A DNA stretch of 64,000 nucleotides from contig CASDWY010000023.1 of NCBI GenBank assembly GCA_949284985.1, forward strand, positions 1 to 64,000. Direction: 5' to 3'. The stretch's first letter is position 1. The number at the start of each line of letters is the position of its first letter. Under the pieces are notes generated by a model, which worked only from the letters and a program-made list of their open reading frames with translations, searched no databases and was not told the origin of the DNA. The DNA comes from an uncultured bacterium (GTDB lineage Bacteria; Cyanobacteriota; Vampirovibrionia; Gastranaerophilales; Gastranaerophilaceae). Below, in pieces: positions 4,582 through 58,057 of the stretch. The translations under genes were made by a program, and so were the position numbers.

Positions 4582-4616
4582 AACTCAAGAGTATCACACT
4601 ATAGTTTTTTATACAA

Positions 4617-6035: not shown

Positions 6036-6099
6036 ATAAACCTCCATACTTTTTTTGATTATAGAATAAAAAAAATATAGCCACAATAAGAAAATGGGA

Positions 6100-6105
6100 T
6101 ATAAT
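6100..6105 (+). promoter_or_regulatory. putative -10 box giving a very short leader
   Basis: TATAAT lies 9 nt before the ATG at 6115, with no recognisable Shine-Dalgarno between them. Transcription would start around 6112, so the message may be almost leaderless. No good -35 is visible 16-18 bp upstream, which limits confidence. Confidence 0.35.
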
Positions 6106-6114
6106 AATATTATT

Positions 6115-6765: not shown

Positions 6766-6775
6766 TTTAGTATTC

Positions 6776-9700
6776 TTAATAATCTACACCAATACTTTTA
6801 CAGCAGGCTACTGCAAAATCTTCAATTTGCTCAAGCATTTCTATTTGTTTATTACGTTTAATATCATCCTCACTGCCTTTAGCCAATTTTATTTCTTTAA
6901 GCAAAGTTATTCTAGTCTGTATGAATTTTAAATAATTATTATATTCTTCGCACCAATGAAATAAACTTTTTGTAACGGCTTCATTTGCATTAATATGCAC
7001 TGCTGTAAACAAATTATACAATGATGGTTTCTCGTCTAATATTTTAACATTTTCTATTATCATAGAAAAATATTGTGCATAAAAATCTGCAACCTCTTGG
7101 AATAATAATTTGTCATCTACTGAAGACTTTATAAGATTAATAAACTTGTCCTTAGTCTCTTTTAAGTCTTCGCTACTGGAGACTTTTGCATCTTTAGGTA
7201 TACTTTGAGAAAACTTATCAAATAATGTATTTATAATATTTTGAGATTCATGGTGCATTTTAATATTGTTGAACAATTGCTCTACAGTAGATTTATAATC
7301 AGATGGTTTAACTTTATAAAGATAATTAAGCGCCATATCTACTAAACCACACTGCTCTAAAAACAGCATCAAAGTAGAATTATTGCTTTCTGCATCACCA
7401 AGATTATTAATTATATATTCAATTCCTTCATCTGAAATAACAGGAAACGTTTGTCCATTTTTTACAACCAAAACATTTTTTTGTTTTTCAATGAAATCTT
7501 TAAACTTGGACGCTACTCCTATACTAGCTGCTCGCATAAGTTCATATTCAAGATTTGAGTGATTGGCTTTTTTATATGCCAACACCAAATATTTTTTAAG
7601 ATTCTCTATAATTTCTGTTTTTTCTTCATTAGCACCTTGCAAAACATTTTTCTGTGCAAGTTCCACCGCATATTTCAACAAATCTCTTGGTTCCTTTAAC
7701 AAATGACATTGAACCATTTTTTCTATCATTTCATTTTTTGCATATTTTGTTTTTTCACTTTCAGAATCTTCTACTAATGCTTTTATCCACTGATTCATAA
7801 GATAATGAGCTTGGGCTTGATGACGTGGCAATACATTAGACTCTACAACAGTTTTAAGCTTTTTTAATACTTTTTTATCTCTTTCAACCAACCTGTTTAT
7901 ACTGGATTCATCTAAACTACCAAAAACTTTCAGTGCTTCGCTATTTATAACATCTATTTCTTTAGTAATATTAGAAACAGCAAAATTTTTATTATTCAAC
8001 TTCTTCATTATTTTTTCTGCTGCAACCCTAATTTCAGGAAAATCTAAATCTCTATCTGACATCTTACTAAGAGTTTTGAGATTATTTAAAAATACTTGTT
8101 TATTTTCTTCAATTTTATCAGATTTTATTATTAAATTTATTGCGTTAATTAATGCAATATACTTTTGCATAAGTTTATGCTTTTTAATACCTAAAATTTT
8201 ATCAGATATATCATCAAACAAATCATTTAAATTCATTGCAAGTTCATTATCACTCTTTACTTGCACACGTGGAATTGCAGGGCGAGCTTTATACTGTAAA
8301 AAAGCAGGTTCTTTCTCTTCTTTGAGAAATTTATCTCCACCTATTGTACTCAATTCTATATCTATATTTCGATACAAATTGTTAAATTTCGCCAAATCAT
8401 TAGAAACAGGTGTTATTTTATTTTTACTTACTCTTATAGGTGCATATACACTAAACCAATGATACCTGCATATTTCTTCTAAACGTTTTATTTCTAATCT
8501 ATTTCCAGCTTGAATTAATTTTATAACATTTTCCGGTTTATCAAGCTTTATTCCAATATTTTCTTGAGTTACGCTGCTAATAACTTTGTTAAATTGTTCT
8601 TCCGGCATATCAATTAATTTAGAATGAATTTTTAAAAATTCTTGATCATTAAAAGGATTATATTTTTCATCAATCCAATTAATAAAATACTTGGATTCTG
8701 GCATAAAATAAATTTTATTTTTCAAAAAGTTATAAATCATGCTTGAAAAATTTTCTTTAATATTTTTCCTTAATTTTATATGCTCCGCTAAAGGAACATG
8801 TGCCATAATGCTATCATTAGCAATTATCTTTGCAACTTCCAAATCATATTTGTTTAGAAAATCCTTAACTGAACCATTATAAGAATTTAACAACCTTGAA
8901 ACAGCAAGCAAAAGATTCTTTTTTAAATCTTTAAGTCCAACATCATATTCATCTTCAATACGAATAATATTATTTTTTATATTAGAATTCAAACTTGATT
9001 TTAACTCTGTTTTATACAAGTTTAAATTTTTACCGCACACATCTGCAAAAACCTCTTTTACCTCGTCTAAAAGTTGTCTTTTAACTTTTTCTAACCCATT
9101 AGGAGTTCTTGCTTCGCCTAAATTATATTGTAGCTCATCTGACATAAATTTGTATGCTTTTTTAATAATTAATTTATTAATAATTAATTTTAAAGGATCT
9201 GACTCAGGAAGTTTATCATAATCTTCAAGACTCATAGGTGGCTTACCATTTCCCCCTATTCGGTTAAGACAAAAAACAAGTTCAGTCTCTAATCTCTCAT
9301 CGAGCTTAATTAATTTATTAGCATTAACTTGACCATTAGTTTTTTCAATTATACTAAACAAATTGTCTATCTGAGGTTCTATTTTTTCAAAATTGAATAC
9401 TTTAGCAAATATTTTATTAATTTTTGTGCTAGTTTTAGGATCAATACCTTGAATCTTCACTCCATCTATAATCGGATATGCGTCTTGTTCCTCGTTAATT
9501 TCAAGAAGTGGTCCTTCAACAGCTTTATATTTAAGCTCAGTATTTATACCATGATCCCATTTTACATTCTTTACAAATTGACCTGCCAAACCTGAAGCTT
9601 CTGTTATAAAACCTTCTGGTCCGCCATATTTTGCTTTATAATCAGTTCTACTAAGACCATTTTTATCAATAAACTTAGTTTTTTCCTCTCTATTGCCCCA

Positions 9701-12568: not shown

Positions 12569-12703
12569 ACCAATTGCCTTTCCTAATAAAATATACTTGC
12601 TTTAAAAAGCAAACAAATATTTTTTTTTACTATTTATTTAAAAATATTACAGTTTTTTTACAAAACAGCTTTTTTCTGCAATAATAAAATAATGGAGTTA
12701 AAA

Positions 12704-13486
12704 ATGAAAAAAATATTACTATCAGTTTTTATAATTTGTTTATGCACATTTCTTTGCGCTTGTAATGCAGAAAAAAAGCCAAAAACGCTTATGGAAAAAG
12801 TTATAAAAAATGATAAAATAATAGTTGGCGTTAAATATGATGCCAAGCCATTTGGCTATAAAGATAAAAATGGTGAATTACAAGGATTTGATGTTGATCT
12901 TGCAAAAAAAATTGCAAAATCAATTTTGGGAGACGAAAATAAAGTTGAATTTGTTCAAGTTACTCCATCCAACCGAATAATAACACTAACCTCAGGCAAA
13001 GTAGATATGATAATCGCAACAATGTCAATTACACCACAACGGAAAAATGTAGTTAACTTTTCAATACCATACTACATTGCCGGACAAGCCTTAATGACTC
13101 CTAAAATGTCCTCTATACAAGGACTAACTGATTTAAAAGATAAAAAAGTTATAGTTATTTTAGGTTCAACAGGAGAGCGCAGTATAAAACACTTTGCACC
13201 AGATGCTATTATTAAAGGATACAAAACCAATACAGAAGCATATCAAGCACTTAAACAAGGCTACGCTGATGCACTAACAACAGATGATACAATCTTGGCT
13301 GGTTTTTTAATGGATGATCCTTCCATGCGAATACTCTCTAAACGTTATACTCAAGAACCATATGCCATAGCTTTCCGCCAAGAAGAAGAAAGCAGAACAT
13401 TCCAAGAAAACGTAAATCATACTCTTGAACATCTTAAAAAATCAGGAGAATTAAACAAACTCAAAAAAAAATGGATTAAATTCTAA
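12704..13486 (+). CDS. amino-acid-type ABC transporter substrate-binding lipoprotein
   Basis: About 260 residues. GGAG ending 6 nt before the ATG at 12704 decides the start over the ATG at 12692. The signal peptide MKKILLSVFIICLCTFLCAC ends in a lipobox-like LCAC, so it is probably a lipoprotein. The body is a family-3 periplasmic binding protein: IIVGVKYDAKPFGYKDKNGELQGFDVDLAKKIAK, then TSGKVDMIIATMSITPQRKN and GSTGERS, as in polar amino-acid binders of the GlnH/HisJ/PEB1 group. The substrate cannot be told. No permease or ATPase gene adjoins it, so it either serves a transporter encoded elsewhere or acts as a sensor. The 3' end overlaps the convergent dCMP deaminase by 4 bp. Confidence 0.88.
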   Translation: MKKILLSVFIICLCTFLCACNAEKKPKTLMEKVIKNDKIIVGVKYDAKPFGYKDKNGELQGFDVDLAKKIAKSILGDENKVEFVQVTPSNRIITLTSGKVDMIIATMSITPQRKNVVNFSIPYYIAGQALMTPKMSSIQGLTDLKDKKVIVILGSTGERSIKHFAPDAIIKGYKTNTEAYQALKQGYADALTTDDTILAGFLMDDPSMRILSKRYTQEPYAIAFRQEEESRTFQENVNHTLEHLKKSGELNKLKKKWIKF

Positions 13487-13944
13487 TTGCAACTTATTAA
13501 AAATGAATCTGAAAGCTCTTTTTGAATATCTGCAACTTCAACGTGTAAAATTGGAGAATTTTCATCTTTTTGGAGATAAACATCCTTAATTCCAGCTTGC
13601 ACAATAAATCTTTTACACAAAATGCAAATTATATTATGTCCATAAATATACATAGTTGCATTTTGACATCTGTCTTGCCCTGCTTGAATTATTGCGTTTT
13701 GCTCAGCATGAATTGAGCGACAAGTCTCATAACAAGTTCCCGAAGGAATTTTATTTTTAATTCTATAACACTCTCCAAGCTCATAACAAGAAAGAACTTT
13801 TGTCGGAGTACCATTATAACCGGTTGCTTTAATTTTGTTATCCGGTCCAACTATTACAGCTCCAACATGAGCCCGTAAACAATTTGAACGTGTTGCACAC
13901 GTTTTTGCCATATCTAAAAAATATTCTGTCCAAGGTTTAATCAT
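13483..13944 (-). CDS. dCMP deaminase family protein
   Basis: A 153-residue zinc-dependent deaminase of the CDA fold, probably converting dCMP to dUMP for thymidylate synthesis. The zinc site is H79-A-E81 with Cys107 and Cys110. The second half reads ICILCKR rather than the usual PCxxC, a small departure. GYNGTPTKV and the Cys/His-rich segment between residues 53 and 78 (including GTCYETCRSIHAEQNA) match the ComEB/dCMP deaminase group, which has an extra structural zinc site. GGAAG lies before the ATG, 11 bp after the UPF0210 gene, so it is probably the last gene of the gcv operon. Confidence 0.9.
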   Translation of the reverse strand: MIKPWTEYFLDMAKTCATRSNCLRAHVGAVIVGPDNKIKATGYNGTPTKVLSCYELGECYRIKNKIPSGTCYETCRSIHAEQNAIIQAGQDRCQNATMYIYGHNIICILCKRFIVQAGIKDVYLQKDENSPILHVEVADIQKELSDSFLISCN

Positions 13945-13955
13945 TTTTTACTTCC

Positions 13956-15323
13956 TTAATTATTTAAACTATGAATAGGAGCGGGAATTCTTCCTGCTCG
14001 TCTAACAAAACCGCTTGAAGAAAGCCCATTTACTTTGATAATTGGAGCTTCACCAAGCAACCCACCATAAACCGCCATATCACCTACATCTTTTCCGGGA
14101 ACAGGTATAACTCTAACAGCTGTTGTCTTTTTGTTTATCATTCCTATCGCCATCTCATCGGCAATTATTCCAGCAATTGTATCTTCAGGAGTATTTCCGG
14201 GAATGCAAATCATATCTAATCCCACCGAACAAACCGACGTCATTGCTTCTAATTTATCAAAAGTCAAATAACCGCACCTAGCTGCCTCAATCATTCCTGC
14301 ATCTTCTGAAACAGGTATAAAAGCTCCGCTCAAACCTCCAACATGAGAACTTGCCATAATTCCACCTTTTTTTACAGCATCATTTAACATTGCCAACGCT
14401 GCTGTCGTTCCATGTGCTCCGGCATGTTCAAGCCCCATAGCTTGGAAAATCCCTGCTACACTATCACCTGGAGTTGGAGTTGGTGCAAGTGAAAGATCTA
14501 TAACTCCAAAAGGCACTCCAAGACGCTGCGCCATTTCCCTGCCTATCAACTCACCTGTTGTAGTAATCTTAAATGCAATTTGCTTAATTTTATTTGCTAA
14601 TGTACCTAAATCAACATTTTTTGGTAAAGCTGAAACAGCTGCAGACACTACTCCAGGACCTGACACACCAACATTTAATGCACATTCCGGCTCTCCTATA
14701 CCATGAAAAGCCCCTGCCATAAATGGGTTATCTTGCGGAGCATTACAAAAACAAACCAATTTAGCTGCACCTATTCCATCTGCGTTCGCCGTTAAAAACG
14801 CTGTTTTTTTTACTATTTCTGACATTTTTAAAACAGCATCCATATTAATACCAGACTTTGACGAAGCCAAATTTATAGAAGAACAAATCCGCTCTGTTTT
14901 ACTAAGCGCTTCAGGAATACTTTCTACCAAGGCCATATCTCCTTTTGTAAAACCTTTTTCCACCATTGCGCCAAAACCACCAACAAAGTTTACCCCTACC
15001 TCTTTGGCTGCCTCATCCAACACTTTTGCCAAATACACATAATCATATTCCCTACAAGACTCTCCTACAAGAGATATAGGGGTAACAGCTATCCGTCTGT
15101 TTATTATAGGAATTGAATATTCTGACTCCAGTTCATTAGCATATGCATTAATATTTTTTGCATATTTTACTATTTTATTATATATTTTTTCACCAACCTT
15201 TTTAACATCTTCATCGCAACAGTCTCTCAACGATAATGCCAATGTCACCGTCCGAATATCAAGATGATGAAGTTTTATCATATTTATTGTTTCTAAAATT
15301 GATTCTGTATGAAATAATGTCAT
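13956..15323 (-). CDS. UPF0210 (PFL-like, DUF711) family protein
   Basis: About 455 residues from the ATG at 15323, which has AGGGG in front and gives the usual family length; the longer frame from 15356 would run further into the ACT gene. Family features include a long Gly-rich segment around [26 protein letters not shown], and [16 protein letters not shown]. The fold is related to pyruvate formate-lyase-like barrels, but the reaction is not established. Proteins of this family are commonly encoded beside a UPF0237 ACT-domain protein, as here, where the gene starts overlap by about 11 bp of upstream sequence. Its presence behind gcvPA hints at a link with one-carbon or glycine metabolism; that is inference. 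Confidence 0.92.
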
Positions 15324-32928: not shown

Positions 32929-32957
32929 TTGACGATAATCATAAAAACTGTTATTCT
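32929..32957 (+). promoter_or_regulatory. promoter of the prepilin gene cluster
   Basis: TTGACG (32929-32934), a 17-bp spacer and TATTCT (32952-32957) with an extended TG just upstream. Transcription would start about 10 nt before the first prepilin ATG at 32975, whose AAGGA lies in that short leader. The following genes are spaced 4 to 30 bp apart, so this one promoter could serve all six. Confidence 0.6.
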
Positions 32958-32974
32958 TAAATAAAGGATTAATA

Positions 32975-34234
32975 ATGAAAAAGAAGGCATTTTCATACTT
33001 AGAATTAATTTTTGCTATGATAATTATAGTGGTGTTAATGTTTATGACTCTACCACTTATTACAAGAAGTGCCAAAAAACAATCCTTAAACGTATTTGGG
33101 GAATACAGATGCTATATTAAAGGAAATCAATTTTTTGAGCAATCCAGGTTCAATAATGACAATCTTAGCGAGCCTAAACAAGTAAACTCTTGCATTTTTT
33201 CAAGACCAACAGGAGCAACTGCCTTTAAAATAACCCTTATAGGAGGAGGCGGCGCAGGAAACCTGCAAACAACAGCACCAACTTTCGTATATAAAACACT
33301 TGAAGATAACATGCCCTCAGTATCCTTTAACGATGCGAATGGAAACGCCCAAATCAACAATATAACAAACCCTTTTGGGACTGGACCATTATCTGCTACA
33401 ACTTTACACCTACATATATCTGGCAAAGATGTAATATACACACATCCTAATACAGGAACAAGCTTTATTGTCAATGGTTTTACTCCTTTTAGAGTAACAG
33501 ATGCCATTAGAACGGTTCCAAACCGCGGAGGAGAAGCAGGTAGTGTTCACACAATAAGCATTCCGGCAGAAAACATGCCATTCGATAATAATGGACAAAT
33601 AGAAATAAATAAAAGTGCCACTAGCACTGCCACAATATTCAATACTGGTATTAGAATAGCTCAACCATCTGCCGGAAACGGATATTCCACTTTTATTAAA
33701 ACAACAGTAAAAAACGGTGAAAATTTACCAAATGACATTTGTGTACACAATAGCACCAGTACTCTTTGCCAAGCTAAAGGCGGAAACCAAGCTAGCAACA
33801 CTTTAATAGATACAGATCTTGAAAATATTTCTGCAACTGTTGGGGCAAAATACACCATTATACCTGGCAAAGACGGGGGTTACGACTCCAGGGTAGCCGC
33901 TTCTGCCGGTCCGGCAGGAACCGGTTCTACGTGTGCTCCAGATCCAACAAAACCAACGACAACTTGTCTTAGTTCACCTCTTGTTACTGAACTGGGGGCA
34001 GGCAGTGGAGGACCTGCAAAGGCTATATCAATTTCTTCTCCAGCCAATTACACTTTCCAAGAATATCACATTTTAAAAATGTATAGGACTATCAATGGAC
34101 AAAATGTGTATTTAAACGACAATTATAACCTCTACTTACAAGGCACACCACCGAAATCAATCCCGACTTTTAATGCCCAAATACAAGGGAACATAGGTCA
34201 AAGTGGTGGCGGAGGAATTATTATAGAATGGTAA
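32975..34234 (+). CDS. prepilin with glycine-rich adhesin-like domain (A)
   Basis: A 419-residue protein. The class III signal is MKKKA|FSYLE, with Ala at -1 and Glu at +5, then a hydrophobic helix to about residue 29. Cys46 and Cys73 (in NSCIFSRP) flank a short loop. A glycine-rich domain then starts at FKITLIGGGGAG (residues 84-95) and closes with GQSGGGGIIIEW at the C-terminus. The two next genes share this frame: Cys...CxF..P, an ITLIGGGG strand and a final Gly-rich turn ending in I-[EQ]-W. Such glycine-rich endings resemble phage receptor-binding tips built of polyglycine-II helices. It is first in a six-gene cluster. Role inferred: tip or minor pilin with surface binding. Confidence 0.82.
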   Translation: MKKKAFSYLELIFAMIIIVVLMFMTLPLITRSAKKQSLNVFGEYRCYIKGNQFFEQSRFNNDNLSEPKQVNSCIFSRPTGATAFKITLIGGGGAGNLQTTAPTFVYKTLEDNMPSVSFNDANGNAQINNITNPFGTGPLSATTLHLHISGKDVIYTHPNTGTSFIVNGFTPFRVTDAIRTVPNRGGEAGSVHTISIPAENMPFDNNGQIEINKSATSTATIFNTGIRIAQPSAGNGYSTFIKTTVKNGENLPNDICVHNSTSTLCQAKGGNQASNTLIDTDLENISATVGAKYTIIPGKDGGYDSRVAASAGPAGTGSTCAPDPTKPTTTCLSSPLVTELGAGSGGPAKAISISSPANYTFQEYHILKMYRTINGQNVYLNDNYNLYLQGTPPKSIPTFNAQIQGNIGQSGGGGIIIEW

Positions 34235-34247
34235 TTAAAGGTGGCAT

Positions 34248-35978
34248 ATGATTAAAAAAACGAATTATAATATTAAATCAGCTTTCTCTCTTATAGAATT
34301 AATGATTTCAGTAACAATTCTTGTTATTTTAGGTCTTATGATGTCTTTTGCTATAACCAAAAAAACACAAAAAGCTATAACAAATGCTACAGGAGGCATA
34401 CATACTTGTTATAAAGATATAAACGGTAAACTTCGACAAAGAGAAGAATTTCATTATTTTGGTGGAAAAACTAAAATTACCGATAATGAAGTAGGAAATT
34501 GCATATTTGAGCTTCCAAGCAATGCAACAGGCGCAACTATATATTTAATTGGAGCAGGCGGTGGAGGCGGCGGCATTCAAGATCTCTCTACAGATTTAAC
34601 AAATTTCTGTCAAATAAATGATACAAATGAACAAACTATTGTTCCTATTAATTGTAAAGAAAGGTCCTACTATTACAACAGCAACGGTATACTTGCAGAT
34701 TGCTGTACAAAAGACGGAACTACATACAAATGTGGAACAATAACAGGGATTGACCAATATGGCAAATTTATAAGCAATGAATGTACTAATATATCTATTA
34801 ATGTAACCCCCTCAACTACTTTGGCTCCACAACCAGAAATTGTTACTAATAAGTTGCCTGCACTCTTTAGCGACGAAGCATATAACAATTTAATATTAAA
34901 AGACTATGTCGTTTCTGTTGCAGGAGGAAATACTTCTACTTATCAAAATAACACTGCATATCATTTCAAATACACTCCAAACCCTAAAATCAACGATACA
35001 TTTATATGCTATAACGGGGTTAATTCAGCTAATGGCACCTCCATAGGAACAAGTTACATTTCTCCCACTCCAGGAATTTTTCAAGTTAATGGACAAGTTA
35101 AAAAAATAAAAGGAACCAGTTGGTCATATTCTAATCGGGCAAACGCAAATAACTTCTTTAACCAAGGAGATACATACGGACAATATTCTTACAACTCGAC
35201 TCCTAAATTATTCACACTGCATTATCAAGCTAAAACACTAACAAAATGCAAAATACCATATGGAACAAATGGTTCTCCAGGAGAAACTATCACTATTTTA
35301 GGACAAAACTTAGCTAATAAAACACTTAAAATAATCGATCAAAATATTGGAACCGGTGGTGCTGGAGGAACAAAAGCAAGTGCAATAAACCAAACTGCCG
35401 GTCAAAAAGGCGGTAACACAAGTCTTACACTCAACAATATAACAAGAACAGCACAAGGTGGGCAAGGTGGAATTTCAAACCTAACTGAATTTCAAGACTT
35501 AAAGAGCAGCCATAATAAAATTAAAGGATCTGCATCAGATAACAACTGGTGGGATCATACGCACTATATGATAAAAACCGAGTATGATCAAGCATCAAAT
35601 ACAACACAATACATTAAAGATAAAGTGCTTGTAAATGCTATAAACCCGGATACATTTATGGCTCAACCCTCTAAATGCACATCAAACAATGACTCATCAC
35701 CATGTACAGCCGGAACATCTCCGGACAGCCTCAGCTATGGTGCAGGCGGTGCCGGAATGAATTCTGTTTTAGATTATGACCCCCTATACAGTTTTTCTCT
35801 TTATAAAAAAACAAGTAACAAAATTTTAAACGACGACCATGCCATAATCGGAACAATAGTTAACAATAAAACTAATAAAACTGTTACACCAGTTATGCAT
35901 ACACCCAATCTAATAACAACAAACCAACCAAACAATTCCGGTATGGGTGGTGCAATAGTAATCCAATGGGGAGAATAA
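34248..35978 (+). CDS. prepilin with glycine-rich adhesin-like domain (B)
   Basis: A 576-residue paralogue of the preceding gene. The leader of 12 residues ends KSA|FSLIELMISVTILVILGL, with Glu at +5. Cys54 and Cys85 match the conserved pair, followed by the strand ATIYLIGAGGGGGG (96-109). The large middle is rich in Asn, Thr and Gly with extra Cys pairs (NCKERS, ADCCTKDG, YKCG). Later Gly blocks include GTGGAGGTKAS and GAGGAGMNS, and the end is GMGGAIVIQWGE. The start is 14 bp after gene A. It is probably surface-exposed, with the Gly-rich part folding as a rigid bundle; binding target unknown. Confidence 0.82.
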   Translation: MIKKTNYNIKSAFSLIELMISVTILVILGLMMSFAITKKTQKAITNATGGIHTCYKDINGKLRQREEFHYFGGKTKITDNEVGNCIFELPSNATGATIYLIGAGGGGGGIQDLSTDLTNFCQINDTNEQTIVPINCKERSYYYNSNGILADCCTKDGTTYKCGTITGIDQYGKFISNECTNISINVTPSTTLAPQPEIVTNKLPALFSDEAYNNLILKDYVVSVAGGNTSTYQNNTAYHFKYTPNPKINDTFICYNGVNSANGTSIGTSYISPTPGIFQVNGQVKKIKGTSWSYSNRANANNFFNQGDTYGQYSYNSTPKLFTLHYQAKTLTKCKIPYGTNGSPGETITILGQNLANKTLKIIDQNIGTGGAGGTKASAINQTAGQKGGNTSLTLNNITRTAQGGQGGISNLTEFQDLKSSHNKIKGSASDNNWWDHTHYMIKTEYDQASNTTQYIKDKVLVNAINPDTFMAQPSKCTSNNDSSPCTAGTSPDSLSYGAGGAGMNSVLDYDPLYSFSLYKKTSNKILNDDHAIIGTIVNNKTNKTVTPVMHTPNLITTNQPNNSGMGGAIVIQWGE

Positions 35979-35982
35979 ATGA

Positions 35983-37719
35983 ATGCCAAATAACAAAAAC
36001 AAACCAGCTATGTCTCTGTTAACAATACTAGCCTCAATGATAGTAGTTATGATAGCATTAGTAGTTGCAACACCTGTAATTACTAAAAGATTACATAAAA
36101 TTTCTTCGGGAAGAAATATAGAAGGTACAGTTAACCTTAACTCATCAAAGGGTTATTTTATGTGTTATATGACCTCCACAGGTCAATTAATGCAAATAGA
36201 AGCCAACATTCTTGCAAATGGAAGTACCACAATAAAAGGTCCGACATCAGCCCAAAATGGATGTAATTTTGATATTCCATCACGTGCAGAAAGTTTTAAA
36301 ATTACACTTATTGGCGGTGGCGGAGGAGGTGCAGGTACAAGTGCAGAAATATTTACATATGAAATAGCACAAGACTCTATAGATTTTGGTATAAATAGAA
36401 CAACTCTAACTACTCCTTTTCAGCAATATAAAACCTACATAACCTCACAAGCAAGTGCTATTAAAGAACTTCTTGGAGAAAATTATCTGAATTTACATTT
36501 CATCATTTCCGGAGCAACCGCAAAAGGTCAAATTAATAAAGAAGGAACCCAAATTCCGGGAACTGCCGGTGCAGTATGCAAAATACCATTTATTACTGCT
36601 TTTATAGATACTTCCACAACAGCAATAAAATACAGCTCAGGTAATAAAGAAGATACAATTGGCAAACTAACCCCCCTAAATACTAACGGAGTTATTAGAA
36701 AAACTATATACGCCTATCCAGGGCAATCCCCGGTTCAATATGGAAATGATTACCTTTCTTACACAGACTGCTATTCTATCGGAACCAGCTGCGAAAAATT
36801 GTTAAATTTAACTTATACAAATTCTAACAACAGCGGAATAGGCACCTGTACAAGCGGTACAAACATAGCACAACAAAACGAAATATACTACTCTGAAACT
36901 CAACCGGGAGCAACACCCTACATAGTTAGCACAAAAAATAACGTAGACACAACAATAGTAAGCATCCCTCTTTCACTGAACAGAAACGCACTAAGAAGCT
37001 ATATTGCAGAAGGTGGCGCTGCAGGTGAAGTAAGAACTTTTGAAACCGCATTTCTGGCACCACTAGATGCAACGTCTATAACAATACCTAAAAACAGTAT
37101 TGGAGCTGGAGGCAGAGGTGGTACTACAAGTTGCAATATAAACAATCCTACAGGTTGTAACGGTGCTCAGGGTGGAACAACAAGTCTAACTTTAACAACA
37201 AATTCCGGTGAAGTAAAATATTCTGCATCCGGAGGTTTAGGCGGTAAAACTAATACAAAAGAAATAGTTCCGAAAGAATCAGATCCCAACACAGGAACTA
37301 TAATATCCGAAGCAAACGGGACTGTCTTTAATGGCGGAAACGGCACAATTGTTCAATACTCTCTTCCCAATAGTATTTTAGCAAAACTTAATATAGAAAA
37401 CACTGCTACAGGTGCACTTGGTTCAAATTGCAATTCGCCCAACGCCAACAAAATATCTACAACAAATTGTAATGGAATTTGTAGTGGCAGCGGGCAACAA
37501 GAAAGTTGTAACGGCAATAACGCCACTCAATTTGGAACAGGTGGTGGAGGCGCAGCAATAGCTATGCAGCTAGCAGCAGGTGGTGCACCTAAAATTACTT
37601 CTTCTATGGCAACAAATTTTATATATCCTAATACAACAAACACAACCCCAGCTAAAGCTCGCTTCAGATCCGGAAATGGTGGACAAGGTGCACCAGGGGC
37701 AATTATAATAGAATGGTAA
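35983..37719 (+). CDS. prepilin with glycine-rich adhesin-like domain (C), lacking Glu5
   Basis: A 578-residue paralogue. The signal is NKPA|MSLLTILASMIVVMIALVV: Met at +1 and Thr at +5 instead of Glu, the only prepilin in the window without Glu5. In type II secretion the tip pseudopilin GspK also lacks Glu5, because nothing is docked above it; by analogy this protein may cap the pilus tip. Cys61 and Cys94 and the FKITLIGGGGGGAG strand (105-118) match genes A and B. Further Gly blocks follow (GAGGRGGT, GGLGGKT, GTGGGGAA) and the end is GQGAPGAIIIEW. The ATG is 4 bp after the gene B stop. Confidence 0.82.
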   Translation: MPNNKNKPAMSLLTILASMIVVMIALVVATPVITKRLHKISSGRNIEGTVNLNSSKGYFMCYMTSTGQLMQIEANILANGSTTIKGPTSAQNGCNFDIPSRAESFKITLIGGGGGGAGTSAEIFTYEIAQDSIDFGINRTTLTTPFQQYKTYITSQASAIKELLGENYLNLHFIISGATAKGQINKEGTQIPGTAGAVCKIPFITAFIDTSTTAIKYSSGNKEDTIGKLTPLNTNGVIRKTIYAYPGQSPVQYGNDYLSYTDCYSIGTSCEKLLNLTYTNSNNSGIGTCTSGTNIAQQNEIYYSETQPGATPYIVSTKNNVDTTIVSIPLSLNRNALRSYIAEGGAAGEVRTFETAFLAPLDATSITIPKNSIGAGGRGGTTSCNINNPTGCNGAQGGTTSLTLTTNSGEVKYSASGGLGGKTNTKEIVPKESDPNTGTIISEANGTVFNGGNGTIVQYSLPNSILAKLNIENTATGALGSNCNSPNANKISTTNCNGICSGSGQQESCNGNNATQFGTGGGGAAIAMQLAAGGAPKITSSMATNFIYPNTTNTTPAKARFRSGNGGQGAPGAIIIEW

Positions 37720-37732
37720 AGGGACTTATATA

Positions 37733-38410
37733 ATGAAAATGAAAATAAAATATGCATATAATCTTATGGAAATAATGTTAGCATTACTTATTCTAGGTAC
37801 AATCATAGCACTTACCCTTTCCAATGCAAAAAAGAAACTTCCCGATGTAGATAAATCAAGATTTAAAAAAGCTTATACTGTAACCGAAAAAACGGTAAAC
37901 ACACTTATTAATGATGAAAACATTTATCCTTATGGGGAAGGGTTCCGCAATTTAGAACCGGTTCAAACTGAATTTGGAGAAACTTTTGGTCTACCGGATG
38001 AAAATACAAAGTTTCGTGATACTTTTAAATATAATCTAGACGTTATTGAAGATAATATTAACTGCCCTATACCCGGGAATACTAAAAATGCTTGTTTTAA
38101 AACTGATGATGGAGTTGTATATGGAATTCCCGACACAGATTTTATAACAAAAAACCTACAAGAGACAACTATTGAACGTGCCAGTGGAGAACAAAAAATA
38201 AAACTTCTTCCTATCACAATTTATACTGATTGGGAAAAAATTTCTGAAAATGCAGATTATAAGAATGACGCATTGTTTATAGGAGTCAGATCAAACGGAG
38301 AAATAAGACTTATTAACGTTGGTAACGTAAATTGTAGCAACAACTCAGATGCAATCCAATGCAAAGCAATGCAATACCTGCAATCCAATACATTAACAAC
38401 ACAGGAGTAA
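37733..38410 (+). CDS. small prepilin (D)
   Basis: A 225-residue pilin-like protein. The signal is KYA|YNLMEIMLALLILGTIIAL, with Tyr at +1 and Glu at +5. The periplasmic part has FRDTFKYNLDVIEDNINCPI, a paired Cys (NACFKTDDG), VVYGIPDTDF and LLPITIYTDW, then GVRSNGEIRLI. The next two genes repeat this order, so D, E and F are paralogues. GGGA lies in the short leader. Predicted minor pilin in the same assembly as the glycine-rich proteins upstream. Confidence 0.83.
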   Translation: MKMKIKYAYNLMEIMLALLILGTIIALTLSNAKKKLPDVDKSRFKKAYTVTEKTVNTLINDENIYPYGEGFRNLEPVQTEFGETFGLPDENTKFRDTFKYNLDVIEDNINCPIPGNTKNACFKTDDGVVYGIPDTDFITKNLQETTIERASGEQKIKLLPITIYTDWEKISENADYKNDALFIGVRSNGEIRLINVGNVNCSNNSDAIQCKAMQYLQSNTLTTQE

Positions 38411-38415
38411 CAATT

Positions 38416-39084
38416 ATGCAAAAAAAACAAGCAGCATCATTGGTAGAAGTCTTAATAATTCTTATAGTTTTAGGGTTTCTAATGGTAATAGTAATACCAT
38501 ACGCCAGAAATACTTCAAACAAAAATCTACAACAACTTGCCGTAATAAAAGCAAATTCTACTATAAAAGAAATCATTAACTCCATGTTAAATGATAGCAA
38601 ATACTACTCCTCAAATCATAATTTTGCAAACATAAACAGCGTAGACGGTCAACCAGAAAACGAAAAATTTAAAACCGCATTTAATTCTTTTTTATCAAAC
38701 ACGAAAGAAGTAAATTGTCCAATGTACACAGAAAGACAAATTAAACTATCTTTTTGTACTTTAGGACAAGACAATATAGCTTGGGGAATACCGTGGACAA
38801 ACTTTACTGAGAAAGATACAAGCATAGTCAATTTAATGCAAAATAATGTTACCGTTCAATATCTTCCTATTACCGTATATATCAATTACAAAGAAAAACA
38901 AGCATTACCAAACGCTAATGGCACTAATAAAGCAACAATGGAAAATTATTTTTATAACAATGCCATTATGTATGGAATAAGACGCGATGGGCAAATAATA
39001 TTTCTTGACAATATTATCGATGAATCAGCTTATCCAAAAGCACTACACTACCAGGCAAAAAAAATTATTGCCTCAAAACAATAA
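38416..39084 (+). CDS. small prepilin (E)
   Basis: About 222 residues from the ATG at 38416, chosen because AGGAG precedes it and the prepilin leader then has normal length (the longer frame from 38359 overlaps gene D). The signal is KKQA|ASLVEVLIILIVLGFLMVIV, with Glu at +5. Shared landmarks with D and F are KFKTAFNSFLSN, a Cys pair (NCPMY and FCTLG), IAWGIPWTNF, YLPITVYINY and YGIRRDGQIIFL. Predicted minor pilin. Confidence 0.83.
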   Translation: MQKKQAASLVEVLIILIVLGFLMVIVIPYARNTSNKNLQQLAVIKANSTIKEIINSMLNDSKYYSSNHNFANINSVDGQPENEKFKTAFNSFLSNTKEVNCPMYTERQIKLSFCTLGQDNIAWGIPWTNFTEKDTSIVNLMQNNVTVQYLPITVYINYKEKQALPNANGTNKATMENYFYNNAIMYGIRRDGQIIFLDNIIDESAYPKALHYQAKKIIASKQ

Positions 39085-39114: not shown

Positions 39115-39801
39115 ATGAAAAATAAAAAAATTGCATTTACTCTTAGTGAACTTTTTATTACACTGGCATTAATTTTTACAATAATGGCAATGCTTGCACC
39201 AACAATTATAAACAAAATGCCCGATACTGATAAGGCAAAAATGAAACAAACTTACGCACAAATACTAAAAAACATTGAAACAATGCTCAACAATCCTCAA
39301 TTATATCCAGATGCATCAGGATTTGCCAATACCTCACCCAGTGTGGATACAATAAGCGGAGACACCTATAAAGATGGTACAAAATTTGCAGATATATTTA
39401 TGTCTAACCTAAATATTGCAGAAATCACTAATATACCAGCTAACTCAAATATAGCTGTATCCTGTACAGGTTCAGACGCTGACTCATGTAATAGAAAGGT
39501 AAATAATGATACCACTATTTGTTTTATTACAAATAACGGTATAAAATATTGTATACCAAAAAACACTAGCTCTTTCTTTAATAACGACACCCCCGATAGC
39601 GTTGCTGTTATAAAGGTATATCTAAGTGATGATGACAGTGATGAGGCGGGATATTATATAAGTGTCACAGCTACAGGGAAAGTTTCTGTACTTCCATTAA
39701 ACTTAGCCTTTGGAAATAAACCAAGGTGCGAAGACAACGATATATACAAACAAGTTAATCAATGCAAACTTAATGATTATTTACTTTCTATCAAAGATTA
39801 A
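39115..39801 (+). CDS. small prepilin (F)
   Basis: A 228-residue pilin-like protein, last of the six-gene cluster. The signal is KKIA|FTLSELFITLALIFTIMAML, with Glu at +5. NKMPDTDKAKMKQTYAQIL resembles the D paralogue (KLPDVDKSRFKKAYTV). It has more Cys than D and E (VSCTGSDADSCN, TICFI, KYCIP), suggesting two disulfides. AAGGA lies in the 30-bp gap after gene E. Convergent with the next prepilin gene, 5 bp apart. Confidence 0.83.
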   Translation: MKNKKIAFTLSELFITLALIFTIMAMLAPTIINKMPDTDKAKMKQTYAQILKNIETMLNNPQLYPDASGFANTSPSVDTISGDTYKDGTKFADIFMSNLNIAEITNIPANSNIAVSCTGSDADSCNRKVNNDTTICFITNNGIKYCIPKNTSSFFNNDTPDSVAVIKVYLSDDDSDEAGYYISVTATGKVSVLPLNLAFGNKPRCEDNDIYKQVNQCKLNDYLLSIKD

Positions 39802-39806
39802 CAACA

Positions 39807-41168
39807 TTAATGAGCTATTTCAACTTTACACTTAGACTCACCTAAAGTACAACCGTAGTCTTCATCTAAAATTCCTTGTGTAATCTCACGAGGAACAATA
39901 TCCTCTGCAGAATTTTTTTTATCAAATATAAACTGCATAACTAAATTAGCAAACAAACTATCTGCATAAAAAGGCACACTGGAGCTCATCCCGACAGTTT
40001 TGGCATTACACCCTTCTACTTTACAATTAACCGCCCAAAAATATAACAAGTTTGTAAAACTCAAAGGTTCACTTAAAACAAGTTGTTGACCAAAATAATT
40101 TTGAGCCCCACCCTGCACTGTTTGACCAGCCCAAGCATGCAATTTAGCATTAAACAATGTCATCAAATCTGAGTTTTGTACGTCATTTTTTTTGTATGTA
40201 TTAGGATTATTAGGATCTGGTTTGTTTAAGTACTTAGGATAGTATACCATTGCACTTGCATAAAGCTCATCAAATTCCGGTCTGCCAAGAGGTATAACTA
40301 CACCATCATTTTTTATGGCAAAAAGAACAATATCAGGCATTCTCATTCCTGATCTAAGTTGTGTATTTGGACCGGAATCCCCATTTAAATCAACTGCAAC
40401 TAATCTAAATTGCATTCTTTCATATTCTTTACCTGTTCCGTCAATATATGGAGGATTAGCAGTCAAAACTGTTGATATGTAAAATTTTTGCCCGTTAGCA
40501 GCAACAAAAGACGGAATAATATTTCCTGTTCCGGAACACTCACCTATAACATTTCCTGAGCTGTCTTTTTGAACTTCTCCGTTTTCATTATATTTTTGCA
40601 TCAATGCACAAAAAGTACTCAAAAAATCACTTCCCACAGATAAATCTTCCTTAGGTCTAACACCTGAAATAAAAGATTTACATTCATTTGTTTCATCAAT
40701 GGTATTTATCTGCTCAGTTAAAAGTTTACAAAAAGCCTTATCTGTTCCTGAACCATCAAATTCGCCTACTGTAGGATCACCAAATAAAAATCCAGGGTAT
40801 TGTCTGGGGTAACCTTTTATACCTCCAATCGCTTCTGCTTCATATGTACTAGTATAATAAGCCCCACCATTTACTTCACTACCCTGAACCGTTCTGGTTT
40901 TTGTATACTCTGCCCAACAATCCTCAGACCAATATAGCTCAGTTACATCATCATTAAGCGCCGAGCACTTACCTGAAATAGGCGCCCACGACAAATAAGC
41001 ATTTCCTACTGTTTGTACCAAAGTATCGTACGCAACATAATAAAGTTTTTTATACTGGTTTTGGCTATTTTTAATAGAGTACATCGAAATTATAGAAACT
41101 ACTCCTATAATTACCAATACAATAACAACCTCTACCAAAGTATATGCACTGCGAAATAATCTTTTCAT
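39807..41168 (-). CDS. prepilin-like protein, 453 residues
   Basis: The start at 41168 is set by GGAGG five nucleotides upstream; that GGAGG overlaps an earlier in-frame ATG at 41180. The signal is RSA|YTLVEVVIVLVIIGVVSIIS, with Tyr at +1 and Glu at +5. The globular part, about 420 residues, is unusually large, with several Cys and a Trp/Tyr-rich N-terminal segment (ELYWSEDCWAEY). It carries no glycine-rich domain. Near its C-terminus is NCKVEGCNAKTVG and at the end GCTLGESKCKVEI. It is on the opposite strand to its neighbours, so it is expressed independently. Predicted pilin-like surface or secretion-system subunit. Confidence 0.8.
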   Translation of the reverse strand: MKRLFRSAYTLVEVVIVLVIIGVVSIISMYSIKNSQNQYKKLYYVAYDTLVQTVGNAYLSWAPISGKCSALNDDVTELYWSEDCWAEYTKTRTVQGSEVNGGAYYTSTYEAEAIGGIKGYPRQYPGFLFGDPTVGEFDGSGTDKAFCKLLTEQINTIDETNECKSFISGVRPKEDLSVGSDFLSTFCALMQKYNENGEVQKDSSGNVIGECSGTGNIIPSFVAANGQKFYISTVLTANPPYIDGTGKEYERMQFRLVAVDLNGDSGPNTQLRSGMRMPDIVLFAIKNDGVVIPLGRPEFDELYASAMVYYPKYLNKPDPNNPNTYKKNDVQNSDLMTLFNAKLHAWAGQTVQGGAQNYFGQQLVLSEPLSFTNLLYFWAVNCKVEGCNAKTVGMSSSVPFYADSLFANLVMQFIFDKKNSAEDIVPREITQGILDEDYGCTLGESKCKVEIAH

Positions 41169-41276
41169 ACGATCCTCCATAGTTGATATAAGTATACAAT
41201 ATATTTGAACATTTATAAATAAAAAAATAAATATTTAATAAAAATACATATTAAGATTGACAAAGAAAAAAAAATA

Positions 41277-41307
41277 TTGTAATCTGGATATATATATTAT
41301 ATATAAT
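41277..41307 (+). promoter_or_regulatory. putative promoter of the 998-residue prepilin
   Basis: TATAAT at 41302-41307 lies 25 bp before the ATG at 41333, with AAGGAG between them. TTGTAA at 41277-41282 is a -35 candidate with a long 19-bp spacer. TTGACA at 41257-41262 with TAATCT 17 bp later is a second possible promoter. Confidence 0.45.
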
Positions 41308-41332
41308 GGGTTATTTAATAAAAGGAGAATTT

Positions 41333-44329
41333 ATGCACAAGTTTAAACTGTCAGAACTCAAACATCAATTACTGCCTGGAAAAAGTTTAGCCTATACGAT
41401 GTCTGAAGTTCTTATTACACTAGCAATTATAGGTGTCATTATCTCACTTCTACTTGGCGGATTTACTATTTCAGAAAAAGCCAAATATCCAACAATGAGA
41501 GCTGTATTCAAAAACGAACTTGCAACAGCACTTGCAACAATGAATACAGAGCAAAATTTGTCAAAAATACAAAATCAACAAGACTTTATTGATCAACTAA
41601 ACGGATACTACGACACAAGCAACGCCTGCGACGGCAAAGCTTGTTTTGCAGCAAAATACAAAGATATGGGTGGCAACGAAGTCAACCTGCCGCTTGGAAA
41701 AGATTATTACACTTTCACAACTAAAAGCGGAGCCAGTGTAAGTATAAAATTTGTTCCCCATGTTGGCAGTGATCTTTCAACATTTATTCCGAATACAAAT
41801 AATATAGATCTATCTAAAAACTCCTATGAAGTTTCAAATGCTGCTTTAAACTACGTAACAGGGGTTTTTGATGTTAATGGTCCCAAAGGACCAAATAAAC
41901 TTGGCGTTGATGTTGGTATAATAATGCCGGCATATTCTTTAGATAAAGACGCCGGAGAATACTTAACTTTTGATAATAAAGGCAAGGTAATTGTTGCAAA
42001 TAAAAATGATAACAAAAGCAATGATGATAATAATTCCAACAACAACACAAACGAAACACCTACTAACAAAATCGTAGTAGACGAAAACGGAAATTTTGTA
42101 GCAAAAGATAACGAAAGTGAAAAAGTTGCTAAATGCGGTGCAAATCACGAAAACTTTGTTTTAGATGATTACGGTAACTGCACAATTTGCGGATTGTCCA
42201 ATGCGACCTGCGCTGCTCAAGGAAAGCAATTAAATAAAAAATCGTGTTTGTGCGAATACAATATATCTTGTCCAAAAAATAAAATTCTAGATAAAGACGG
42301 TAACTGCGTATGTAAACCTATTACAGCAGCTGCCGGTCCATATGCATTAAAGGATGATAAAGGAAACCCAATACAAGATAGCGAATCTTGTACATACAGA
42401 TGCTCACTTGGTGCATCGTTAAAATGCTTGGCTAACGGTGGAACTTGGAATTCCACAACCTGTTCTTGTAACTGCGGCAGCAGCGGTGATTCCTTATCTG
42501 CAGCCGGCAGATGTGCTAAAAAAGTTAGTTACAATGGTTATGCACAAGCTAATCCCAATAACTATTGCACATGCGAATGCTTACCTCAAGCTTCCGTAGA
42601 AAAACTAATACAACAAAAAGAAAATCCTGAAAATAAAGCAGATTTTCAATATAACACATTATATGACAGCGATATAAACAACAAATGTTACAAATGTGCA
42701 GAACCTGTAGATGAAACCCTTTCATTAAAAAGAAATGACGATGAAAAAGCAGAACAAATAAATGGACTTTGTACAGTTGGTTGCAGCCAAGACAAAATTA
42801 ATGAATTCAATAACTTTACAGAAGAAAATAAAATTTTCTACGAACCACCTAAAGGATATGATGGACAAAATCTTAGCAACACCCCAACAGCTTGTTCAGC
42901 TAAATGTGTATTAACACAAGATAAGTGTAACACTTTAGCTAATCAAATAACATCCGGTGGTGTACAAAATAAAGAATGCAAATATTTAGGCAAGATATTC
43001 CATACTTGCGCTCTTACTTCAAATCCTGTAAATCCAAAATTCCCTGCAACTGAAGAAAGACCAGCAAATTCAAGTCTTGGTGAAAATTCTGCTCTATACA
43101 CCTGCAATATATCACAAGGAGCAATAAAAATAAAATTAAAAGCAAATAAAGAAACATGTCGTTGTGAATTGGATCTTGATGCTTACAAAAATTCATCAGC
43201 AGGCGCAGGAATAATTCCAGATGGTAAATTGTTAAGGTACGAGTATCATGGTAAATGTGGACATATGGCAGCATACAAATGCACATATACCTATGATAAT
43301 AGCTCATCTAATGTAATATTGCAGCCAAATCCAAATGCTAACAATCCTTATGATAACAGCCCAACATATGGACTTGTTATAAATGAAAAATGCTTATCTT
43401 GGTGGGATCCTATATTACTGATAAAACCATATAGTTGTAATACTGTTGTATCAAACCAACCTAATATGAAAAACGGTACAGTAAGCGTTAAACTTGACCA
43501 AAATTCAGCAAACTCAAACATAACTTGGATTGCTGAACAAGCTAAAGGCACAGCATCATACTATTTCTTAATAAAAAATCACGCTACATCCGCAATTCCT
43601 TCAATCAAGGAACATTTATTCACCGATATGGCTCATAATACCGGATTGCAGGAACTCAATGAAGTCTATGATACAAACAAAGACGGTGTTGTAAACGAGC
43701 TTGATAATAACTTCTATAACCTTGGATTATGGGCTGATACAAATGCAAACGGCATCTATGATGCAGGTGACATTAAATTATCAGTTGAAGATGCAAACGT
43801 TATCGATATTTACACGCAAGAAACTTTCAAATCAGATCAAAGCGGTATTGCAGAACAAACTGACAAGGCTATAACTTCTATTCACGGAAAGTATATGGCC
43901 GGAATAAAAAATGCAGTTAACCTCAATGACGGAAACTACTGGGTTAAAAGAGTTGCTAATAAGGCAAAAAATCAAATTGAATGGTATTACGTTACAAAAG
44001 AAAAGAAAACCATTAAAGTGCCTGTTAAAAAACAACCTTCCGAGAATACATCTGACGCATCTAACACCAGTACAACCGCAAGCTCAGGCACATCTACACC
44101 TAAATTTGAAGAAAAAGTTGTCGAAGAAGATGTTACGTACAAATATCTTTATAACAACGGAAAATACGAACTTCTTGATAATAACGGCAACAAAGTTCAA
44201 TCAGACATAAGCCATCCGCTTCGTAATGTTAACGCATCAGCAATTAAACAATATTATGAAAAAGATGGATCAAAATACAAGGTTCAAGAATACGAATCAA
44301 TAGATATTCTATTCAAAGAAAACAAATAA
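41333..44329 (+). CDS. very large cysteine-rich prepilin with calcium-loop-like motifs
   Basis: 998 residues from the ATG at 41333 (AAGGAG upstream). A 20-residue leader ends GKSLA|YTMSEVLITLAIIGVIIS, with Glu at +5. A pilin-like domain runs to about residue 210 (ending KGPNKLGVDVGIIMPAY, similar to the NGPKGPNKWG-type segment of the first gene in this window). After a Asn/Asp-rich linker come about 350 residues dense in Cys, with CxxC and CxC spacings (TICGLSNATC, SCLCEY, CVCKP). The last third has two EF-hand or dockerin-like loops, DTNKDGVVNELD and DTNANGIYDAGD, about 20 residues apart. A Ser/Thr linker precedes the final domain. This is a modular surface protein mounted on a pilin helix; binding partner unknown. 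Confidence 0.82.
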   Translation: MHKFKLSELKHQLLPGKSLAYTMSEVLITLAIIGVIISLLLGGFTISEKAKYPTMRAVFKNELATALATMNTEQNLSKIQNQQDFIDQLNGYYDTSNACDGKACFAAKYKDMGGNEVNLPLGKDYYTFTTKSGASVSIKFVPHVGSDLSTFIPNTNNIDLSKNSYEVSNAALNYVTGVFDVNGPKGPNKLGVDVGIIMPAYSLDKDAGEYLTFDNKGKVIVANKNDNKSNDDNNSNNNTNETPTNKIVVDENGNFVAKDNESEKVAKCGANHENFVLDDYGNCTICGLSNATCAAQGKQLNKKSCLCEYNISCPKNKILDKDGNCVCKPITAAAGPYALKDDKGNPIQDSESCTYRCSLGASLKCLANGGTWNSTTCSCNCGSSGDSLSAAGRCAKKVSYNGYAQANPNNYCTCECLPQASVEKLIQQKENPENKADFQYNTLYDSDINNKCYKCAEPVDETLSLKRNDDEKAEQINGLCTVGCSQDKINEFNNFTEENKIFYEPPKGYDGQNLSNTPTACSAKCVLTQDKCNTLANQITSGGVQNKECKYLGKIFHTCALTSNPVNPKFPATEERPANSSLGENSALYTCNISQGAIKIKLKANKETCRCELDLDAYKNSSAGAGIIPDGKLLRYEYHGKCGHMAAYKCTYTYDNSSSNVILQPNPNANNPYDNSPTYGLVINEKCLSWWDPILLIKPYSCNTVVSNQPNMKNGTVSVKLDQNSANSNITWIAEQAKGTASYYFLIKNHATSAIPSIKEHLFTDMAHNTGLQELNEVYDTNKDGVVNELDNNFYNLGLWADTNANGIYDAGDIKLSVEDANVIDIYTQETFKSDQSGIAEQTDKAITSIHGKYMAGIKNAVNLNDGNYWVKRVANKAKNQIEWYYVTKEKKTIKVPVKKQPSENTSDASNTSTTASSGTSTPKFEEKVVEEDVTYKYLYNNGKYELLDNNGNKVQSDISHPLRNVNASAIKQYYEKDGSKYKVQEYESIDILFKENK

Positions 44330-56893: not shown

Positions 56894-58057
56894 TTATGAA
56901 ACTACTACATAGAATGTCTTTGTAACTCTTTCGTATTTTGTAAAGCTTTGTTTGCTTGTATCTGCAAATGTATATTCTGTCTGTTGTTCCAAAGTATGAC
57001 CTGTTGTTGCATCTGCCAAGTCTACTTTATTAGTATTATCAGCAACTGTATGCTTAAGGGTATTATCTCCATCACCAAAGTAAATTTGGTTTCCAGAAAC
57101 ACCTTCAACTTTGTAATTAGTATAATATTTCATATTGTAGTAATCATATTTACTGTATGAAGCTTCTTGGGTAGAAATATTTGCAAGCGGTATAGCCACT
57201 TTGCTTGTTTGTATACCCTCTTCACCTCGTGGATAGTAATAATCTACTCCACCATGTGTATAAGAATATTCATATATTCTTGCAACACCGCTTGCATCAG
57301 CTCCTATAACATATATTGGACTACCATTATCTCTGGTTGCTCCCATATCTATTGTTTCTGCATAAGCAAGATCTTCCTCTGATAATGCTGTATAATATCC
57401 GTTAGTACAACAAGAATAATCATAAGTTGTATTTACCGGTATTTTTTCAGATGAATGAGTATAATCTAAAGTTTCAATCCATCTGTCTTCCATATCAGCA
57501 AATCTATCACTGCTTAAAAGAGCAAAATCTAAAGTCATTGCTGTAGAATTACCTTTACGAGTATTAATTTGGTTATTATTTCCATAATATGCTATGTAGT
57601 TATTGCCATTGTTGAGGATAACCTTGTTTCCATCTCCAAGCAAACCTACTTCGTTATCACCATCTCCACTGATAACCATATTATTGTTTCCATAAGCACG
57701 GAAAATATTATCACCTGATATTGATGTAGCTGTTAAATTTTCACCATCAATATACATAAAGTCATTGCCTTTTCCGGTTATAGCAGTGCTATTCGTTCCC
57801 CAAAGGGCTACTTGGTTGTTGCCATCCCCAGCATTAACCACGTTCTTATCTCCGGAAACATAAATTGTATTATTTCCTTCTTTTGCATTAATACTTATAT
57901 TATCCCCATTTAACATTACAACATCATCAGCAGTCTCATTAAGCTCCAAAGTTACTCCTTGAACTTTCGCTTGAGAATTTGGATCAAATTCCTTGCTTTC
58001 TAACATTTCAAATGTTAATTGGTTTTCATATTGATTTAGTGCTTTAATACTTGTCAT
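56894..58057 (-). CDS. GDGNN-repeat (RTX-like) protein without a signal peptide
   Basis: 387 residues. From about residue 45 to 170 a run of short repeats follows the pattern xGDGNNxVxLxGxxNxVxx: GDNISINAKEGNNTIYVSG, GDKNVVNAGDGNNQVALWG, GNDFMYIDGEN, GDGDNEVGLLGDGN, GNNYIAYYGNNN. These resemble the beta-roll of RTX proteins and right-handed beta-helices, but the Ca2+-binding GGxGxDxLx consensus is degenerate. A later copy, GNQIYFGDGDNTLKH, is near residue 330. The rest is Tyr/Asn/Thr-rich. With no N-terminal signal, a C-terminal type I secretion signal or an intracellular role is possible. A perfect inverted repeat precedes the ATG. Confidence 0.75.
   Translation of the reverse strand: MTSIKALNQYENQLTFEMLESKEFDPNSQAKVQGVTLELNETADDVVMLNGDNISINAKEGNNTIYVSGDKNVVNAGDGNNQVALWGTNSTAITGKGNDFMYIDGENLTATSISGDNIFRAYGNNNMVISGDGDNEVGLLGDGNKVILNNGNNYIAYYGNNNQINTRKGNSTAMTLDFALLSSDRFADMEDRWIETLDYTHSSEKIPVNTTYDYSCCTNGYYTALSEEDLAYAETIDMGATRDNGSPIYVIGADASGVARIYEYSYTHGGVDYYYPRGEEGIQTSKVAIPLANISTQEASYSKYDYYNMKYYTNYKVEGVSGNQIYFGDGDNTLKHTVADNTNKVDLADATTGHTLEQQTEYTFADTSKQSFTKYERVTKTFYVVVS

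Follow-up and report, generated by a model that had tools for sequence, protein, structure and literature searches.

Clusters of minor pilins, such as FimU-PilVWXE with PilY1 and the GspH-I-J-K set, prime filament assembly and sit at the filament tip. Gastranaerophilales are common gut bacteria that are almost uncultured. Modular pilins are well established, and one survey counts over 1,200 proteins with 264 architectures (PMC8179133); PilV of plasmid TP114 is a variable type IV pilus adhesin that is active in the gut (PMC9045228). In phages, gp38 is reported to carry variable segments between glycine motifs (PMC12892980).

The locus described here lies within a 64,000-nucleotide stretch (the window) from a gut bacterium that belongs to Gastranaerophilales, a non-photosynthetic line of cyanobacteria, and its named relatives are Candidatus Gastranaerophilales. 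Three tandem genes, P1 to P3, code for predicted prepilins with a glycine-clustered C-terminal module, and these probably serve a retractable type IVa pilus as modular minor pilins, forming an adhesin at its tip.

A run of prepilin genes and the pilus machinery

P1 to P3 are at the head of a tight run of six pilin genes (Table 1), with gaps of 13 bases between P1 and P2, 4 bases between P2 and P3, and 13 bases between P3 and the next pilin open reading frame (ORF). Because the gaps within the trio are so short and three small prepilin genes follow directly 3', the six genes look like a single operon. The first-pass annotation had placed the three genes in tandem and suggested stoichiometric production from one promoter; the ORF positions and an operon-like layout are borne out, and the single promoter and equal stoichiometry stay a suggestion. 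Promoter-like sites upstream of P1 are no more numerous than in shuffled controls. Adjoining the cluster is a gene (41306-44329) coding for a 1007-aa protein that starts like a prepilin and contains a long stretch rich in Cys, with no family match beyond the signal. Elsewhere in the window are a minus-strand gene for a 387-aa protein (56894-58057), whose regular repeats bear a weak likeness to RTX calcium-binding nonapeptides, and a minus-strand 1930-aa ORF (6776-12568) with no Pfam match at E 0.01.

Table 1. Coordinates of the prepilin genes, candidate promoter sites and glycine motifs in the window
Feature	Position	Strand	Remarks
Candidate promoter sites 5' of P1	32912..32957	+	TTAACA-16-GATAAT; TTGACG-17-TATTCT with TG; weak
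P1, first modular prepilin	32975..34234	+	419 aa; predicted cleavage A5/F6; Glu5 present
P1 strand and glycine run ITLIGGGGAG	33230..33259	+	residues 86-95
P1 C-terminus: glycine run and IIIEW-ending strand	34187..34231	+	from sequence and model
P2, second modular prepilin	34248..35978	+	576 aa; predicted cleavage A12/F13; Glu5 present; above TIGR02532 cut-off
P2 glycine run GAGGGGGG	34551..34574	+	residues 102-109
P3, third modular prepilin	35983..37719	+	578 aa; predicted cleavage A9/M10; Thr in place of Glu5; Gly_rich_2 above Pfam cut-off
P3 glycine run GGGGGGAG	36313..36336	+	residues 111-118
P3 C-terminus: glycine run and IIIEW-ending strand	37672..37716	+	from sequence and model
Small prepilin	37733..38410	+	225 aa; member of the P1-P3 gene run
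Small prepilin	38416..39084	+	likely ATG start at 38416 in an ORF that opens at 38359; weakly similar to GspG
Small prepilin	39115..39801	+	228 aa
Large prepilin, convergent	39807..41180	-	457 aa; stays beside the trio in near relatives

Each of the three proteins has a short basic leader, Gly or Ala at position -1 and a hydrophobic N-terminal helix, with prepilin signals read from the sequence as MKKKA/FSYLE (P1), NIKSA/FSLIE (P2) and NKPA/MSLLT (P3). Cys pairs (C46/C73 in P1, C54/C85 in P2 and C61/C94 in P3) are spaced 27 to 33 residues apart around a predicted beta-hairpin. P2 exceeds the TIGR02532 cut-off and P1 and P3 singly fall below that for N_methyl; ComGE and other pilin models also match in profile searches, and the family profile matches pilins in the PDB at E 1.5e-6.

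P1 and P2 have the Glu at mature position 5 (Glu5) and P3 does not. Counted after by-eye correction of four mis-called cleavage sites, Glu5 has been lost only from the third protein in the clade to which the window belongs (G000, G002, G215 and G058, reading MSLLT, MSLVA, MALVL and MSLLS); apparent losses in L064, L072, L086 and L087 came from the mis-called sites, and Glu5 is kept in these. GspK, the tip subunit of type II secretion, is a known exception among type IV prepilins in having no Glu5, and the parallel loss in the window's clade hints that P3 may be the outermost tip subunit.

Type IVa pilus genes are present on contigs other than that of P1 to P3. A PilB-type ATPase (best match TIGR02538, 558 bits), PilC/GspF and a secretin are coded side by side, and elsewhere in the genome are a prepilin peptidase and two ATPases that score above the cut-off for the PilT family. 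PilB and PilC are best or near-best matches at scores below the equivalog cut-offs, and the PilB model outscores GspE for the assembly ATPase. PilY1 has no match in the genome, in a search whose control was equally silent. The same genome also codes for another secretion-type ATPase next to a short secretin (G000:C15:97109-99975), possibly of a Tad pilus.

It is unlikely that P1 to P3 are instead minor pseudopilins of a type II secretion-like piston, with modules that hold or push out a secreted substrate. GspH-I-J-K likewise has several minor pilins in a row and one subunit without Glu5, one downstream pilin of the run is weakly like GspG, and the scores of the assembly ATPase and of PilC against GspE and GspF are almost as high. 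However, type II secretion would be marked by a dedicated GspE-GspF-GspD set and no retraction ATPase, whereas the two PilT-family retraction ATPases point to a pilus and not a piston, and large, fast-evolving modules suit surface binding better than a conserved piston.

The glycine-clustered module and its relation to phage tail proteins

The module includes a strand running into glycines (ITLIGGGGAG in P1, IYLIGAGGGGGG in P2 and ITLIGGGGGG in P3), and the proteins end in GGGGIIIEW (P1), GGAIVIQWGE (P2) and APGAIIIEW (P3). Glycines are clustered more than in shuffled copies (p = 0.002 for P1, <0.0005 for P2 and 0.001 for P3), although overall glycine is only 10 to 12%, so the proteins are glycine-clustered and not glycine-dominated. 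The shared plan that had been noticed at the outset, a pilin signal and helix, a Cys pair, a glycine strand and an I-x-W end, is borne out by the sequence of all three proteins and recurs in the 108 proteins described below. Two corrections apply: P3 is without the usual Glu5, and the C-terminus called glycine-rich is so by clustering and not by overall content. In P2, two residues (GE) follow the W of the I-[EQ]-W end.

P3 matches Gly_rich_2 (PF21722) with 29.9 bits against a cut-off of 24.3, and P1 (11.2 bits) and P2 (11.0 bits) both fall below it. The same model is matched by 27 of the 52 members of the family alignment (P3 and 26 others; best E 5.6e-19), and phrog_863, a phage tail family, by 18 of the 52 (best E 1.6e-20); other phage tail PHROG families (phrog 416, 6202 and 754) are matched as well. 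P1 and P2 are homologous to P3 by profile, and P1 on its own has no significant Pfam match. Both parts are above cut-off in the 278-aa protein of L002, with N_methyl at residues 4 to 27 and full-length Gly_rich_2 at residues 58 to 274. Judged by these profiles, the P1-P3 module is related to Gly_rich_2 and phage tail-fibre families. The L002 gene (1330-2166; G004:C2) is a single-gene prepilin and the smallest clean example of canonical Gly_rich_2.

Direct searches were empty: tblastn of L054 and P3 against phage genomes gave no match, with sensitivity limited by the low-complexity filter of BLAST, and scanning viral contigs turned up no relative either. The evidence for a link to phages is therefore that of profiles and folds. 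PDB profile searches match pilins and no glycine-rich adhesin; the sole match in a PDB sequence search with P3 alone, a glycine-run match to a designed peptide, was set aside.

The P1 model (mean pLDDT 71.5), built with an alignment that includes its relatives, has its matches in a viral fold library mainly among proteins annotated as minor tail proteins or as glycine-rich domain-containing, with a best E of 1.3e-4, probabilities up to 0.91 and low TM-scores. This adds to the sequence evidence, since P1 alone finds no significant Pfam family. Confidence in the P3 model is high for the helix, hairpin, first strand, 330-430 core and C-terminal strand and poor for the inserts, and is low over half of the model. 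Both models have a common order of helix, hairpin, short strands, ITLIGG strand, core and C-terminal strand. Several glycine motifs are within confident parts, in segments that DSSP assigns to neither helix nor strand. A PDB fold search with the P1 and P3 models gives nothing with E < 0.001, and the Pam3 fibre appears only at E 1.1; since searches of solved structures give no significant match, a polyglycine-II bundle in these modules is only plausible. The reading of the first-pass annotation holds in part: the likeness to glycine-rich phage tail proteins that it had pointed out is supported by Gly_rich_2, the PHROG tail families and the viral fold library, and the polyglycine-II bundle stays a conjecture.

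The glycine segments could be unstructured linkers that resemble phage proteins in composition only, but we consider this very improbable. Large low-confidence stretches in the P3 model, the PDB fold result and the empty phage searches all fit such linkers, whereas the HMMER matches are full-length and reach E 1e-10 to 1e-19 even though composition-corrected, the glycine motifs sit where the models are confident, glycines persist as other residues vary, and the P1 model finds glycine-rich tail proteins despite having no significant Pfam match.

Ordered paralogues with diverging modules

Within the family, 133 of 239 genomes match a profile of P1 to P3, though the weakest of these matches could come from ordinary pilins. 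A wider profile, run over the order, reaches E 1e-15 or better in about 100 of 286 genomes, of which a single one is outside the window's family, and across the phylum outside the order no genome is better than about E 1e-7. Because the strong matches are nearly all in the window's family and the rest of the phylum stops at about 1e-7, module-bearing prepilins are essentially a family-level feature. Profile A6 gave weak matches in most genomes of the phylum (E about 1e-3 to 1e-7), which are ordinary pilins caught by the helix and were left uncounted.

Together with the window, 39 further loci make 40 loci that yield 108 prepilins ending in the glycine/I-x-W strand. Iterated profiles seeded by each window protein recover 108 of 108, with P2 and P3 aligning end to end, and by this measure all of the collected Ca. 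Gastranaerophilales proteins form one family. There are 31 runs with exactly three such genes adjacent, although the loci were picked for having matches and the share of triplets is therefore not a frequency. In a tree built from the anchor region, 9 changes account for the labels first, second and third, compared with 44.3 when shuffled, and the closest rows to each window protein are the same-position genes of other genomes. As columns are few in this tree and many of its forks open, the claim is limited to clustering of labels; from that clustering, the first, second and third genes are best read as old paralogues whose order has been kept. Conserved order in other genomes of the lineage was a check that the first-pass annotation had named, and the 31 three-gene runs and the clustered labels agree with it. 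Short second-position members of 159 to 188 aa (L057 6386-6865 and 10618-11112; L072 4933-5448; L085 7525-8091) keep the anchor, Cys pair and C-terminal strand and have lost the glycine runs, and are perhaps the bare core of the module.

The anchor is conserved and the module diverges with insertions and deletions. Among close genomes, identity is 77 to 100% in the helix, 62 to 97% in the hairpin region and 46 to 81% in the rest of the module, often with many gaps; hypervariable glycine-rich regions in other genomes were likewise a check named by the first-pass annotation, and variable modules are seen. Glycines of the module are retained more often than its remaining residues in 14 of 15 close pairs. 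Between L056 and L059 the flanking genes are 79 to 98% identical and the three glycine pilins 53 to 58%; the difference is smaller in other pairs.

An invertible switch or inverted repeats were sought in the window and not found. One relative, L057 (G202:C6:128000-146000), has two head-to-head copies of the whole trio plus small pilins (3697-14961). Its inverted repeats (8342-8632 and 8956-9246) are 291 bases long with 100% identity; they take in the starts of both genes and lie on either side of a 323-base spacer. Apart from the repeats, the first proteins of the two copies are only 38% alike. The spacer has one promoter-like site per strand, no more than expected by chance, and the repeats and spacer could be an invertible promoter.

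Rather than binding surfaces, the modules might be variable shields or decoys, a glycine-rich cap evading phages or antibodies that target the pilus. This reading is improbable. It draws on the fast divergence of the modules relative to neighbouring genes and on the switch-like head-to-head cassettes of L057 with their perfect repeats, but it leaves unexplained both the use of a module related to phage receptor-binding proteins and the three order-conserved paralogues across the family.

A candidate pilus-tip adhesin and its described counterparts

If P1 to P3 act as a pilus-tip adhesin, as we favor, prepilin peptidase would cleave them and their helices would co-assemble as a priming complex at the pilus tip, probably with the three downstream small pilins. 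The glycine segments would form a stiff scaffold presenting variable loops that may bind a gut surface, be it mucin, other bacteria or food particles, and PilT would then retract the pilus and pull in tip-bound material. Weighing against this reading are the lack of a significant PDB fold match and of any direct match to a phage gene, the low confidence of half of the P3 model, the location of the pilus genes on other contigs and the Tad-like system in the same genome. That three diverged paralogues have stayed in order suggests a single hetero-oligomeric tip bearing three distinct heads. A more elaborate version is tentative and somewhat doubtful: a three-pilin hetero-oligomer with polyglycine-II receptor-binding heads that have a common ancestor with phage tail tips, one binding module being common to pili and phages, and with duplicated cassettes switched in some genomes by an invertible promoter.

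The trio provides order-conserved candidate adhesins for niche-holding by Gastranaerophilales, which can be tested on gut glycans and cells. It would also add a phage-type binding module to the heads that pili carry, and the idea of a module shared by pili and phages is testable by structure. The first-pass annotation knew of no description of the architecture; a pilin with a grafted binding module is already known in general (PMC8179133), and what looks new is the glycine-clustered module in a threefold arrangement on pilins. Searches of the open-access literature turned up no account of such a module on pilins, nor of the pili themselves.

FimU-PilVWXE with PilY1 and GspH-I-J-K (PMC7541494, PMC5979040) are minor pilin clusters like this one, from which P1 to P3 differ by the glycine-rich modules on three pilins. 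The shufflon protein PilV of the IncI2 plasmid TP114 (PMC9045228) is similarly a type IV pilin with a variable C-terminal adhesin domain, but it is one gene varied by DNA inversion, whereas P1 to P3 are three genes varied by divergence. Phage gp38 of S16 and PP01 (PMC12892980) and Pam3 gp24 (PMC9608196) share the plan of beta strands leading into glycine motifs that bracket variable loops; P1 to P3 are anchored by a pilin helix and not a tail fibre, have fewer glycines and no direct sequence match to these proteins, and the polyglycine-II lattice is a feature of the phage proteins. Compared with Gly_rich_2 itself, the P1-P3 family has long inserts between its glycine motifs. PilB and PilC of Streptococcus sanguinis (PMC8179133, PMC9934059) likewise join a small pilin part to a large grafted binding module and are thought to be at the tip; their modules are of the vWA or lectin type, whereas those of P1 to P3 are glycine-clustered and phage-tail-like, and are carried, as putative binding heads, by three ordered paralogues.
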